Assembly (NCBI GenBank): GCA_018268035.1
Contig: JAFDXI010000125.1
Location: forward strand, 1 to 64,000
DNA length: 64,000 nt
Direction: 5' to 3'
From: Bacteroidota bacterium
Lineage (GTDB): Bacteria > Bacteroidota > Bacteroidia > Chitinophagales > Chitinophagaceae
Under the pieces are notes generated by a model that saw nothing but the letters and a program-made list of their open reading frames with translations, searched no databases and was not told where the DNA came from. The position numbers and the translations under genes were made by a program. This document shows, piece by piece, positions 1 to 6,030 of this stretch. Position 1 is the stretch's first letter. Every line of letters begins with the position of its first letter.

Positions 1-153
1 TTGGATGAACAGTTAAAACCTGTTATTACTAACGATGGCAACAACAGTTATTTTGAACAGGTAGGCAGTAGTGGCGGTTCATCTGTGCAGCAATACAACC
101 CGCAAAGGCCGATAACAAAAAATGGATATGTTTATATTTATGTTTCCAATGAA

Positions 154-202
154 TTGCGCAGCAATCAGCGAGACAATAAAAAAATAAATATGCACGAGCT
201 AA
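154..202 (+). other. 49-bp insertion disrupting the Rhs reading frame
   Basis: Removing 154-202 joins YVSNE (ending at 153) directly to TPNIYTYWDNLQVTH (from 203), the continuity expected of Rhs cores. The extra 49 bp is not a multiple of three and encodes an in-frame continuation that stops at 229-231. It has no obvious inverted repeat and is not a duplication of its flanks; about 2 bp (aa) are shared at the ends. Origin unknown. Confidence 0.65.
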
Positions 203-554
203 ACTCCGAATATTTACACATATTGGGATAACTTGCAGGTTACGCATATACATGGCCATCTCTTGCAGGAAGAAGGTTATTATCCTTTTGGTTTGGAGAT
301 GAAAGCAATAAGTTCACAGGCAGCTATGAAGATGCAAACGCGATATAAATTTAATGGCGGCACAATGCTGGAAACAAGTTTTGATGTGGATTATTATGAA
401 ACTTACTTCAGGCAATATGATGCACAGACAGGGAGGTTTACGGGTGTGGATGCTTTGGCGGAAAAAACTTTTTCAGAAACACCATATCATTTTGGGAGCG
501 ATAATCCTATTAGCTTTAATGACCCAAGTGGAGCTATGAAACAATATAATGAAA
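203..554 (+). repeat. Rhs core copy A
   Basis: First of three related DNA copies of the Rhs core 3' end. It runs from the codons for TPNIYTYWDNLQ to GAMKQYNE. It is near-identical to copies B (1979-2238) and C (2993-3224) over the segment encoding DVDYYETYFRQYDAQ-GRFTG. Homology to copy C stops at 554, where the variable tail begins. Confidence 0.85.
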
Positions 555-1359
555 GTGGAAGGCCGATGAGGGACCGGCCCACCAACTGGAACCCGCAATT
601 GAGGATACTCCCCGAAGAGTACACCAGTTTTTGGGATAAGTACTGGAGCAACCCATTTGCGGCAGCGGAAATGAATGCTAATTTAGGGAGAGGAGATGGT
701 GATGCATTATCTGAAAAAATTGGTTCTTTTACAGTAGACAAATATGGAAATATTTTTACTGTTGGTGCAATAGCCGAAGGATTGTTTCAAGGTTTTACTA
801 ATGCGATAGAGAACACAGATGATAAAGGAAATTGGGAGTTTAATTTTCAATTACAACAATTTGATGTTTTTGACAAAGATGATAAGAAGATGGGGGTCGT
901 AAGTGTTTTAGGCTATGATTATTTGGAATTCGTAAATGAAAAAGGAAGAATAAATAGAGGTTTAGAAATAAAATTAGCTTTTAGTTATTTGACAGATTAT
1001 GAAGGGCGACGTAACCAAAAATGGAACTGGGTTCAGCTTGTTACAACAAATACTCCTTACGGGCATGAAAAAGCAAATACCCCTTATTATGATCCATCTC
1101 TTCCGAAAAATGCTTTTCATTATTATTACCCAGAATCTTCAGTTAGTTTTGGTGACAGGCCATCAAGAGATGAAATTCATGGAAATGTATCCTGGACAGC
1201 TCAACTAAGCTTGGTTGATATGAATGATAAAAGATACTATATTACCTTTAGTTATGGATGGACTTTCATTAATAACGTTTTTACGAAAATACCATTTCAG
1301 CAAATACCAAATTCTACTAAAGCTCCGTGAATCAAATTCGTTTTAATATATTAAAAGTC

Positions 1360-1962
1360 ATGAAATTTATTTTACTTTATTTTATAACTATTTCATTATT
1401 GCAAACAAATAATCTGCAAGGGCAGCAGATGTATTCGCAAACAATTGAAATAAAGATAAAAGTCTTAAAAGATTATGTTGTATCACATGGTATTGCTTAT
1501 TATCAAAAAATTTATAAGGATTATGAATATACTGCCAAAGGAGATTCAGCAAACGAAAAAAGATTCGACATTGAATTATCCATACAAAATAATTCATCAA
1601 AGAACATTTACATATGGTTAATGACTTGTTCATGGACAGACAATTTTCTTATAAATAATAATTATGTTTTTTTTACTGGAGATGATTGCGACAGTAATTA
1701 CCCAACTGAATTAGAAATAAAAAGTGGGCAAAAAAAAGTATATAAAACTACTCTTATCAAATCAATCAAATTTGATTATCCACCAAGTAACACTGTTTAT
1801 AGCAAACAAGTTGAAACAACAAAGTTGGGTTTAATTGTTATCAACGATATATTTAAAAAGAGCAGATCTCAGATAGTAGATTTTAATAAATACAGAACTT
1901 TAATGAATGATAAAAGTAAATGGAAAGTCATTTGGAGTAATCCTTTATATTTATTGAAATAA
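1360..1962 (+). CDS. Hypothetical exported protein, candidate immunity partner of the Rhs tail
   Basis: I do not recognise this family. A GTG at 1327 overlaps the TGA of the Rhs tail by 4 bp, but ATG 1360 starts a clean signal peptide (MKFILLYFITISLLQ, then a QGQQ cleavage-like region), so I chose 1360. The mature part of about 175 residues looks beta-rich (alternating hydrophobics, ELSIQNNSSKNIYIW), like extracytoplasmic proteins, and has no catalytic motif I can see. Its immediate position after the Rhs tail is where an immunity gene normally sits. That role is inference from position only; an exported accessory protein is an alternative. Confidence 0.55.
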   Translation: MKFILLYFITISLLQTNNLQGQQMYSQTIEIKIKVLKDYVVSHGIAYYQKIYKDYEYTAKGDSANEKRFDIELSIQNNSSKNIYIWLMTCSWTDNFLINNNYVFFTGDDCDSNYPTELEIKSGQKKVYKTTLIKSIKFDYPPSNTVYSKQVETTKLGLIVINDIFKKSRSQIVDFNKYRTLMNDKSKWKVIWSNPLYLLK

Positions 1963-1978
1963 AATTAATAATTAAGGA

Positions 1979-2262
1979 CATAACTTGCAGGCCTGTCCGC
2001 CCTCAGGTGGATTACCCACATACACGGCCATCTCTTGCAGGAAGAAGGATATTATCCTTTTGGTTTGGAAATGAAAGCAATTTCTTCTGCTGCCGCGATG
2101 AAACCACAGACAAGATATAAATTCAATGCAGGTACAGAGTTGGAAGCAAGTTTTGATGTGGATTATTATGAGACGTATTTCAGGCAATATGATGCACAGA
2201 TAGGAAGGTTTACGGGAATAGATGTATTGAGTGAAATTTTAATGAAAATGTTACATGTTTAA
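1979..2262 (+). pseudogene. Rhs core fragment (copy B), no start, truncated tail
   Basis: DNA homologous to copy A starts at about 1979 (ataacttgcag) and stops at 2238, just after the codons for GRFTGIDVLSE. The frame then runs six unrelated residues (LMKMLH, V) to a stop at 2262. The usual PYxFGxNNPxxFNDPSG segment is missing. A 20-bp palindromic insert (1992-2011) breaks the frame near the 5' end. There is no plausible start in the Rhs frame except a CTG/TTG near 2035. It reads as a recombination remnant, not as a working gene. Confidence 0.75.
1992..2011 (+). repeat. 20-bp palindromic insert inside Rhs core copy B
   Basis: Compared with copy A, where ttgcagg is followed directly by ttacgca, copy B has 20 extra bases between ttgcagg and ttaccca. 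They contain the arms TCCGCC and GGTGGA (one G-T mismatch) around CTCA, with CCTG/CAGG nested. GC content is much higher than the surroundings, as in REP-like short palindromes. Confidence 0.6.
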
Positions 2263-2295
2263 TAACTTGCCTGAACAGATATTTTGTAAATTCAC

Positions 2296-2823
2296 ATGGT
2301 GAAAAAACGAAAAGGAACAGGACTCGATTTCAAGATTGATAAACTGACTAACTCAATTGAAAACCTTGTGACCGGTGAGGTATTTGATACAGTAATAGTG
2401 AGGTTGATGGAAACTGACATTAAGCAACTAAAGAAAAATGATTGGCAATTTAATTGGCAAAAAGAATTAAAGGACAAGATCAAAGAAGTCTATAAGCTGA
2501 GCACGGTTAATAACCCTATAATAATTCAAGGTCTCATTAGCATTGAAGACAAACATGATCATATATTTATGCACCTCATTGAAAGTTCAAAATTTAATAA
2601 AGGCAAAACGAAGGTATATTTAGGAGTGCCGGGAAATTTAGTTGCTTACGCCTGTAAAGTTTCGTTTGACAAGGGTTATGAAGGCTTTCTTGCTTTTGAT
2701 GCTAAATCATATTTAATAAAACACTATGAACAAATACTTCATGCGACTCATTTTCGGGGATTAAGGATGTTTATTGAAACAAGTGCCGCATTAAGACTTA
2801 TATCACAATATTTCAAAAAATAA
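2296..2823 (+). CDS. GNAT-like acetyltransferase-fold protein of a two-gene module
   Basis: The C-terminal half has a layout I associate with GNAT-type folds: a beta strand (GLISIEDKHDHIFMHLIES), a YLGVPGNLVAYACKVSFDKGYEGFLAFDAKS segment resembling acetyl-CoA-binding motif A, then LIKHYEQ and a final strand RMFIET. N-terminal residues 8-35 (GLDFKIDKLTNSIENLVTGEVFDT) are typical of a small group of Bacteroidota proteins I recall as encoded next to a very short partner gene. The ATG at 2296 is 33 bp past the end of Rhs copy B, and the stop is 4 bp before the next ORF, so the two are probably co-transcribed. Acetyltransferase activity and any toxin-like role are inferences. Confidence 0.6.
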   Translation: MVKKRKGTGLDFKIDKLTNSIENLVTGEVFDTVIVRLMETDIKQLKKNDWQFNWQKELKDKIKEVYKLSTVNNPIIIQGLISIEDKHDHIFMHLIESSKFNKGKTKVYLGVPGNLVAYACKVSFDKGYEGFLAFDAKSYLIKHYEQILHATHFRGLRMFIETSAALRLISQYFKK

Positions 2824-2827
2824 AAAT

Positions 2828-3004
2828 ATGGGACTAATTAAAGAACCAAAAAATATAGATCTGTCAACAAAATCTGAACCGTGGACAGAACAGGAACTTT
2901 CAGACTTTAGAAAAATAATGAATGCTATTAAAAAGAAAAATGCAAAACGTAAAAGCCGGATAATAACTAAGTCAACCGGGAAACATGCATCAATGAAATC
3001 ATAA
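2828..3004 (+). CDS. Small basic protein (58 aa), partner of the GNAT-like gene
   Basis: A short ORF starting 4 bp after the preceding stop: MGLIKEPKNIDLSTKSEP, then WTEQELSDFRKIMNAIKKK, then a Lys/Arg-rich end. The first half looks conserved in style (LIKEPKNID, WTEQEL); the second is basic, suggesting nucleic-acid or partner binding. The last residues MKS and the stop TAA lie in DNA aligning with Rhs core codons (ATG AAA CCA CAG in copy B), and the frame continues open into Rhs copy C. The native C-terminus may therefore have been lost at a recombination junction. Function is unknown; an antitoxin-like role is speculative. Confidence 0.55.
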   Translation: MGLIKEPKNIDLSTKSEPWTEQELSDFRKIMNAIKKKNAKRKSRIITKSTGKHASMKS

Positions 3005-3250
3005 ACAAGATATAAATTCAATGCAGGCACAACATTGGAAACAAGTTTTGATGTGGATTATTATGAAACATATTTCAGGCAGTATGATGCACAGATAGGG
3101 AGGTTTACGGGAGTGGATGCATTGAGTGAAAAAACAATTGCGCAAAGCCCTTATCAGTTTGCAATAAATAATCCGATAATCTTTAATGACCCGAGCGGAG
3201 GAGCTATGAAACAATATAATGAAAATAATTGTGGAAAGAAATTAGCTTAA
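2993..3250 (+). pseudogene. Rhs core fragment (copy C) with short tail
   Basis: Homology to copies A and B begins around ATG 2993 and runs to 3224 through DVDYYETYFRQYDAQIGRFTGVDALSE and NNPIIFNDPSGGAMKQYNE. It ends after nine more residues (NNCGKKLA). It lacks the first half of the core and any sizeable tail. It is in the same frame as the preceding 58-aa gene, separated only by TAA 3002-3004, where copy B has CAG and copy A has CAA. Probably a remnant acceptor site for tail modules. Confidence 0.75.
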
Positions 3251-3334: not shown

Positions 3335-5932
3335 TTACTTCAACAAACCTTTTATTTCACTTAGTTTCATCAATGCTTCAACAGGCGTTAACCGGTTGAT
3401 ATCAATAGCAGAAAGCAAATCCCTGATGGCAGCAAATGTTGCTGAATGTTCATCAAAAATAGAAAGCTGTAATTGCGGCGCCGCAATTTTTTTCATATCC
3501 ATTTTTGGGCTCCCTTCCTGTTTGGCTTCCAGTTGTTTTAAAACTTCATTGGCCCTGTCAATCAGTTCCGGCGGCATGCCTGCCATCTTCGCAACGTGGA
3601 TACCAAAACTGTGGGTGCTGCCCCCCGGCGCCAGCTTGCGCAGGAAAATAATTTTATTGCCCACTTCCCTGTTGGTGATATGGAAATTTTTGATGCGGGG
3701 AAATTTATTTTCCAGTTCATTCAGTTCATGATAATGCGTGGCAAATAATGTTTTGGGTGCTGCGGGTGAATGGTGCAAAAATTCAGCAATGCTCCAGGCA
3801 ATGGAGATGCCGTCATAAGTGGAAGTGCCCCTGCCTATCTCATCGAGCAGGATCAAACTGCGTTGCGAAATATTGTTGATGATGCTGGCCGTTTCATTCA
3901 TCTCCACCATGAACGTGCTTTCGCCGCCACTCAGGTTATCGCTGGCGCCCACCCTCGTAAAAATTTTATCTGTCAGTGGGATTTTTGCTGCATCTGCAGG
4001 CACAAAACTTCCCATGTGTGTAAGCAAAGTAATCAACGCTGTTTGTCGCAGCAATGCACTTTTACCACTCATGTTCGGACCAGTGAGGATGATGATTTGT
4101 TGCGTAGCAGGGTCAAGTAAAATATCATTCGCAATATATGATTCACCAGCTGCAAGATTTCTTTCAATCACCGGATGGCGGCTCGCTTTCAGTTCCAGCT
4201 CAAACCCATCATGCAGCAGTGGTTTTTTATAATTGTAATGAATTGCATTCTGAGCAAAACAACATAGACAATCAAGTATTGCCAACACGCTTCCGTTATT
4301 TTGAACAGGTGCAATAAAATCCTGCAGCTCTGTCAAAAGCTTATCAAACATCTCTGTTTCAAGTTGCAGGATTTTATCTTCAGCGCCGGTAATTTTTTCT
4401 TCATACTCCTTTAACTCTGTAGTGATATACCGTTCTGCATTGGCCAGCGTTTGTTTGCGCATCCAGTCAGCGGGCACTTTATTTTTTTGAGAATTGGTTA
4501 CTTCAAGATAATATCCGAATACATTATTAAAACCAATTTTTAATGTAGAAATCCCTGTCCGTTCTGCTTCTCTTTGTTGTATGTTGATCAGGTATTGTTT
4601 ACCGCCACTGGCAATTGTCCTCAACTCATCAAGGCCCGCATCCACATTAGATTGTATCACTCCACCTTTGTTCACTGCAACCGGCGGTGTTTCATTTATC
4701 TCTTTCAGTATTTTTTCTGAAATATACCTGCAGGGATTAATTGCATCAGCCAGTCTCTTTAAATATTCATTAGCAGATGCAGCACAGGCATACTTTATTT
4801 GTTCAGCATATTGCAGGCCGTTGGCAAGTAATACCACTTCTCTCGGATTAATTTTTTTTGCAGGTATCTTGCTCACCAGCCTTTCTATATCGCCACATTG
4901 TTTTACCAGGTGTTGGATTTGTTTGCGCAGGTCGGTTTGTAAAATGAGAAATTCAACAGCATTCAACCTTTCCTGTATTTTCCTGCTATCTTTCAAAGGC
5001 AATAGCAGCCAGCGTTTCAGCAACCTTGCGCCCATAGGGCTCACAGTGGCATCAATCACTTTTAACAGGCTCAACTGTTGTTCATTGCCTGTATTTAATA
5101 ATTCAAGGTTACGGATAGTGAAACGGTCCATCCACAGATAATCTTCTTTTTCCAACCGTTGTATGTTGGTGATGTGTTGAAGATTGGGATGCTCTGTTTC
5201 TTTTAAATAATGCAATACTGCGCCTGCAGCAATAATACCGCAATGCAGTTTTTCAATTCCAAAACCTTTTAATGAATGTGTCTGAAAATGTTTTTGCAGG
5301 TTTTCTGTTGCAAAAGCTTCATCAAAAATCCAGGCATCTAAAGTATAAGTATAAAATTTTGAACCGAATTTTTCTTTGAAAAATTTCTGGTTACTGCGTT
5401 GATAAATTACTTCTGCAGGCTTTAAGGTTTGCAACAATTTATCAGCATATTCCAGGTTGCCTTCAGCAACAAAAAATTCGCCTGTTGAAATATCAAGAAA
5501 CGCCAAGCCAAAAACTGTATCATCACTGAAATGGATACCGGCTAAAAAATTATTGCTGTTATGTTCCAGTAGTTTTTCATTGGTAGCAATACCGGGAGTC
5601 ACCATTTCCGTTACGCCACGTTTTACAATTCCTTTTGCCAGTTTAGGATCTTCCAACTGGTCGCAGATAGCAACCCTGTAACCTGCTTTTACCAGTTTAT
5701 GTAAATAAGTGTCGAGTGCATGATGTGGGAACCCTGCAAGCTCACTGGCTGATGCCGCACCATTATTTCTTTTGGTCAGCGTAATGCCTAATACCTGAGA
5801 AGCTGTAATAGCATCACTACCGAAAGTTTCATAAAAATCGCCCACACGAAACAATAAAATAGCGTCAGGATATTTTTGTTTAATAGCCTTGTGTTGCTGC
5901 ATCAATGGGGTATCGTCTGTGGCTTTTGCCAT
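3335..5932 (-). CDS. mutS: DNA mismatch repair protein MutS
   Basis: The 865-aa product is the mismatch-recognition ATPase that starts methyl-independent or MutL-coupled repair. The mismatch-reading motif F-Y-E (GDFYETFG) is near residue 30. The clamp and connector regions follow, then Walker A GPNMSGKS near residue 620, Walker B LILLDEIGRG near 695, and THYHEL just after. The frame stays open to 5983, but the 17 extra residues (MSGLFIHHH...) are atypical, so I chose ATG 5932 (MAKATDDTPLMQQHKAIKQKYPD), which matches the family N-terminus. Length is normal. It lies about 100 bp downstream of the L,D-transpeptidase gene in the same direction and converges on the Rhs remnants. Confidence 0.97.
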   Translation of the reverse strand: MAKATDDTPLMQQHKAIKQKYPDAILLFRVGDFYETFGSDAITASQVLGITLTKRNNGAASASELAGFPHHALDTYLHKLVKAGYRVAICDQLEDPKLAKGIVKRGVTEMVTPGIATNEKLLEHNSNNFLAGIHFSDDTVFGLAFLDISTGEFFVAEGNLEYADKLLQTLKPAEVIYQRSNQKFFKEKFGSKFYTYTLDAWIFDEAFATENLQKHFQTHSLKGFGIEKLHCGIIAAGAVLHYLKETEHPNLQHITNIQRLEKEDYLWMDRFTIRNLELLNTGNEQQLSLLKVIDATVSPMGARLLKRWLLLPLKDSRKIQERLNAVEFLILQTDLRKQIQHLVKQCGDIERLVSKIPAKKINPREVVLLANGLQYAEQIKYACAASANEYLKRLADAINPCRYISEKILKEINETPPVAVNKGGVIQSNVDAGLDELRTIASGGKQYLINIQQREAERTGISTLKIGFNNVFGYYLEVTNSQKNKVPADWMRKQTLANAERYITTELKEYEEKITGAEDKILQLETEMFDKLLTELQDFIAPVQNNGSVLAILDCLCCFAQNAIHYNYKKPLLHDGFELELKASRHPVIERNLAAGESYIANDILLDPATQQIIILTGPNMSGKSALLRQTALITLLTHMGSFVPADAAKIPLTDKIFTRVGASDNLSGGESTFMVEMNETASIINNISQRSLILLDEIGRGTSTYDGISIAWSIAEFLHHSPAAPKTLFATHYHELNELENKFPRIKNFHITNREVGNKIIFLRKLAPGGSTHSFGIHVAKMAGMPPELIDRANEVLKQLEAKQEGSPKMDMKKIAAPQLQLSIFDEHSATFAAIRDLLSAIDINRLTPVEALMKLSEIKGLLK

Positions 5933-6030
5933 AGCGGCAAATATAGGCAGCACAGCATGGTGATGAATGAATAACCCACTCAAATTATCAACAAAATACA
6001 GTAGGCTTTGGAAATGACTGGTTGTAAATT

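Follow-up and report, generated by a model that had tools for sequence, protein, structure and literature searches.

A probable 3'-distal end of an orphan rhs-CT/rhsI array, partly decayed, in a Chitinophagaceae genome

The left end of a 64 000-nucleotide stretch of a Chitinophagaceae genome (the window: bases 1–64 000 of contig C28 in a 181-contig assembly, window base 1 being the first base of the contig) is best explained, with a probability of roughly 0.8, as the 3'-distal end, decayed in part, of an orphan rhs-CT/rhsI array. That the region belongs to such an array is very probable. Orphan tail arrays have been studied mainly in enterobacteria. The array is of this known kind, a row of orphan Rhs modules; its tails are undescribed and an insert shared by several modules is unexplained.

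Three copies of the Rhs core, denoted A, B and C, lie within the first 3250 bases (Table 1). The pieces were mapped on the 1451-aa full-length Rhs protein of the congener G001, which contains DUF6443 near the N-terminus and, by inspection, a signal-peptide-like start; on this protein, B corresponds to residues 1094–1173 and C to residues 1115–1191. The three repeats had been noticed in an earlier reading made from the sequence alone (the sequence-only reading), and are confirmed where it placed them, with chance excluded. They match TIGR03696 (Rhs_assc_core): copies A (E 3.5e-9) and C (2.5e-9) score above the cut-off, and B (6e-5) falls below it because it is truncated. The description of the copies as near-identical was too strong: the shared repeats are real, but the identity of the best shared segment is 86% for A and B, 90% for A and C, and 91% for B and C.

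Module A is the only intact module of the three, with a 365-aa frame followed by a 211-aa immunity candidate; its 5' part is missing solely because the contig starts there. In copy B, the reading frame is lost within the core and a stop follows 8 codons past LSE. In copy C, a stop codon interrupts the 5' part, and the copy ends 16 codons past the NDPSG motif. Both are decayed remnants. The sequence-only reading took them for displaced C-terminal modules, each copy being followed by a different sequence; the 5' part is indeed absent (starts at residues 1094 and 1115) and the following sequences do differ, but neither B nor C has a tail of toxin length and neither is usable as a tail module. The insert of copy B (1992–2011), which resembles an imperfect palindrome, does not occur in the other copies, and as a candidate repeat it was dismissed, one place being found within the window.

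Table 1. Features of the window and of the contigs linked to it. Residue numbers refer to the G001 Rhs protein.
Feature	Contig	Coordinates	Strand	Remarks
Module A, upstream core part	C28 (window)	1–153	+	residues 1031–1081; cut by contig edge; bases 1–125 exact in C144 and C45 ends
49-bp frame-breaking insert	C28 (window)	154–202	+	between residues 1081 and 1082
Module A, Rhs-associated core	C28 (window)	203–538	+	residues 1082–1193
Tail A, candidate toxin tail, about 260 aa	C28 (window)	539–1330	+	no family match
Candidate immunity gene of tail A, 211 aa	C28 (window)	1327–1962	+	by position; signal-like start by inspection
Core copy B	C28 (window)	1981–2238	+	truncated at both ends; own 20-bp insert; no tail
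Mobile-looking two-gene unit, not Rhs	C28 (window)	2263–2953	+	between copies B and C
ORFs of the two-gene unit	C28 (window)	2296–2823 (175 aa), 2828–3004 (58 aa)	+	
Core copy C	C28 (window)	2987–3250	+	5'-truncated; core match about 2987–3214; no toxin-length tail
mutS-like gene	C28 (window)	3335–5983	-	right border of array, not a member
C147 module	C147			core + tail of about 283 aa, then small ORFs, then 535-aa rhs piece
C144 first module	C144			core + HExxH tail (weak Peptidase_M91 match, E 0.006), then 157-aa ORF
C144 middle module	C144			706-aa rhs piece with tail, then 202-aa ORF, then start of a further core

The array extends beyond the contig edge. A genome-wide search with core A, which the sequence-only reading had proposed, yields ten matches, three inside the window and seven outside, the nearest of the latter being two on C144 and one on C147, both short contigs. 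C144 (minus strand) terminates in exactly the 125 bp that open C28, and C147 terminates in the 125 bp that open both C147 itself and C144 (minus). End overlaps of this sort are typical of assembly graphs, so that the likely order of the contigs, judged from these overlaps, is C147, C144, C28. C45 (minus) shares these terminal 125 bp with C144, which gives C28 two possible left neighbors; this could be explained by a missing contig or by a mixture of strains, and short contigs may be absent from the chain. C45 is a 71.6-kb contig with a truncated Rhs core at its end (1–320, minus strand).

Three further truncated modules lie on the two linked contigs; their tails differ, and small ORFs follow each of them. 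Given that the 125-bp overlaps join these modules to the window, its left end is probably the distal end of a longer orphan rhs tail/immunity array. Each array module carries the TIGR03696 core (below the threshold in B). The pieces start at residues 561, 794, 891, 976, 1094 and 1115 of the 1451, the true 5' start of module A and of the first modules of C144 and C147 being hidden by contig edges; the complete cores share an end near residue 1193, and beyond it the four array tails show no similarity to one another. Judged by eye, the C144 middle module ends in a tail that resembles a restriction-endonuclease-like nuclease. The small ORFs behind the C147 tail are a similar pair (140 and 141 aa) plus a third that is shorter; these three related ORFs stand in tandem (C147 1325–2764), resembling a row of immunity genes, and C147 2797–2837 repeats a 41-bp stretch of the tail gene. 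Overall, small ORFs adjoin the four tails of the array and are lacking behind B and C; none of those behind the tails matches a known immunity family.

Tail A and the ORF next to it have no match in Pfam, NCBIfam (where the best hit is at chance level), PADLOC or PHROGs. Among 397 other genomes of the order, tail A has one weak relative, attached to a different truncated Rhs core (in G078), and the ORFs behind the two tails are unrelated to each other; pattern-based scans over 84 980 species genomes and over viral contigs, which reach close relatives only, did not recover tail A. An AlphaFold2 model of the tail, made without an alignment, has a pLDDT of 32. Within the 211-aa ORF, the stretch after an internal ATG (1360) is signal-peptide-like, and such a start in the neighbor suggests that the candidate toxin would act outside the cytoplasm.

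The cores bear marks of exchange. In the C144 middle module, the identity to the sister modules breaks sharply inside the core, from 89–93% in the first 45 bases compared to 53–57%, 67–70% and 45–54% thereafter. Four-gamete conflicts are distributed non-randomly in two of the four sets of copies (p 0.0005 and 0.04), are absent from a third, short set and are random in the set that includes B (p 0.51). Additionally, a 3188-aa Rhs frame in G267 carries a relative of the C144 middle module's tail, and the first part of the same tail is seen again on an Rhs frame of 1476 aa in G170, where it leads into a different end. The mosaic cores and the tails held in common with other Rhs cores speak for past exchange, to which the data give no date. 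Of the recombination with a full-length rhs that the sequence-only reading proposed, only past exchange is visible, and no full-length rhs was found in the assembly.

The same layout is found in relatives. Among 40 related genomes, 23 contain 137 core copies, among them 20 multi-copy clusters on a single strand; wherever a cluster includes a frame of at least 1100 aa (10 clusters), the long frame occupies the first place and no other, an outcome expected once in 23 040 under random order (the product of the cluster sizes). The upstream portion of the protein retrieved 65 named loci, mostly from Chitinophagaceae; there, additional same-strand cores number 22 downstream (14 loci) versus 1 upstream (1 locus), and 17 of the 18 comparable extra tails are unlike the main tail, the eighteenth having 20 residues in common with it. 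Judged from these genomes, this layout is a trait that recurs in the family. The five-core array of the congener G005 (contig C25) has first and last tails that begin almost identically, which suggests duplication of a module. The sequence-only reading had proposed an array of polymorphic-toxin tails, and this interpretation holds up: the overlapping contigs hold further modules, other members of the family show the same layout, and the cores are mosaic.

The array would have grown by duplication and by homologous recombination inside the conserved core, each new toxin-plus-immunity end displacing the old one and the displaced ends staying downstream as spares. By analogy with Salmonella, it would hold spare toxin/immunity ends in store, with module A as one such end, and B and C as worn remnants around a mobile gene pair.

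Whether any spare can be loaded today is a separate matter. No full-length rhs of the array core type was found in the assembly, so that the upstream-contig check proposed in the sequence-only reading brought further modules on C144 and C147 but not the complete gene; residues 1–560 of the G001 protein have no match in the assembly, compared with matches at 74 of 79 loci of relatives in the control. Three modules contain, at one and the same core position, an identical 49-bp insert that shifts the frame by one (C147 72–120 and 4428–4476, and C144, minus strand, near 5069–5021, in addition to the window copy). In module A, the frame entering from upstream runs into a stop codon 27 bases past the insert and the downstream frame opens no earlier than the end of the insert, so that in-frame fusion to this module would seem to need a crossover 3' of the insert, within the ~330-bp stretch of core from 203 to 538. 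Neither G001 nor the C144 middle module has the insert. The recipient rhs not being in the assembly and three modules carrying a frame-breaking insert, ongoing tail switching in this genome, with reloading of the spares, appears rather improbable.

Several explanations of the insert were tried and rejected: programmed frameshifting (by inspection, TAA codons inside the insert close the downstream frame that would be needed), a hairpin (z 0.39) and a dispersed element (of its four places in the genome, every one is in the array). It is highly improbable that the insert has a function, as a spacer, and is not damage; if it had, the frame break at a fixed point of the core in several modules would keep the upstream protein tail-less until a downstream crossover loads a tail in frame, a built-in off state in a tail reservoir.

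The same observations bear on the possibility that the locus is a graveyard in which the full-length gene is lost, all copies are decaying and there is no present role. The missing N-terminal half of rhs, the decay of B and C and the frame-breaking insert in three modules all fit such a history, which we consider possible but not probable. The tail frames of four modules are, however, fully open (365, 387, 378 and 706 aa), and between the core copies synonymous changes exceed amino-acid changes (for example, dN 0.026 and dS 0.19 for A and the first C144 core), although this signature may be inherited from recent function. Moreover, the assembly breaks inside these very repeats, and the main rhs may therefore simply be missing from it.

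The small ORFs behind the tails, two of them similar and in tandem in C147, would also be expected if the orphan modules acted alone, as toxin-antitoxin-like pairs or as stores of immunity against neighbors, with no reloading; in Salmonella, one adjacent orphan rhs is reported to act as a toxin-antitoxin module (PMC7043789). The only evident start before the core of module A is, however, a TTG at 233, and stand-alone action is unlikely.

The unit between B and C has 80% DNA identity and 88% protein identity to a unit in another genus; the 175-aa protein is patchily distributed (54 of 197 genomes of the family) and its 58-aa partner is detectable at 6 of the 11 other loci examined. From its sequence and distribution, the unit looks like a mobile pair, perhaps a toxin-antitoxin pair. 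It is quite doubtful that its insertion split a single core copy into B and C: the two flank the unit and jointly cover core residues 1094–1191, but they overlap by ~145 bp of core at just 91% identity, when close to 100% would be expected of a recent target duplication, and C is closer (95%) to the first core of C144. On the other side of C, orthologs of the mutS-like gene are present in all 8 genomes of the genus, and no rhs was found at the mutS site in the congeners examined. A conserved array site beside mutS was rejected: the 3' side of the gene varies among congeners without rhs, and the genes at the end of C45 do not adjoin mutS in a relative that has both on one contig.

The orphan array preferred here has known counterparts. 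In Salmonella, an orphan tail was recombined onto the main rhs and then used against kin (PMC3967940). As in the orphan rhs-CT/rhsI of Enterobacteriaceae, exemplified by Salmonella LT2 (PMC3967940), the cores are 5'-truncated and followed by different tails and small downstream genes, the modules lie 3' of the main gene (here, as seen in relatives), and the long core homology is a possible substrate for recombination. Unlike that system, the array has the Chitinophagaceae core type, no main gene in the assembly and the 49-bp frame-breaking insert in three modules, and the T6SS sheath gene (VipB, PF05943) was found in none of the 8 genomes of the genus, with a positive E. coli control. Orphan cdiA-CT/cdiI are likewise displaced C-terminal modules in rows with immunity genes, some of them damaged (PMC3150448); the varied lengths of upstream homology and the damaged fragments are shared, whereas the delivery protein there is CdiA and the boundary VENN, compared with the DPxG region of Rhs here. 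RHS toxin cassettes of Bacteroidetes have been described, with HExxH metallopeptidase tails among the kinds listed (PMC3482391): a toxin cassette beside an immunity gene, behind a constant 5' gene body, is common to both, but tail A and its neighbor match none of the four family collections searched. The same genome contains other Rhs modules of a different core type on C121, C78 and C169; the tails on C78 and C169 have HExxH motifs, and that on C169 matches Peptidase_M91 at 1.9e-10. A full-text literature search, which covered a minority of subscription papers, returned no paper on orphan Rhs in Chitinophaga.

A single contig edge can conceal most of such an array. The array described here supplies unstudied candidate toxin/immunity pairs, and a layout that was worked out mainly in enterobacteria is now seen as recurrent in Chitinophagaceae.
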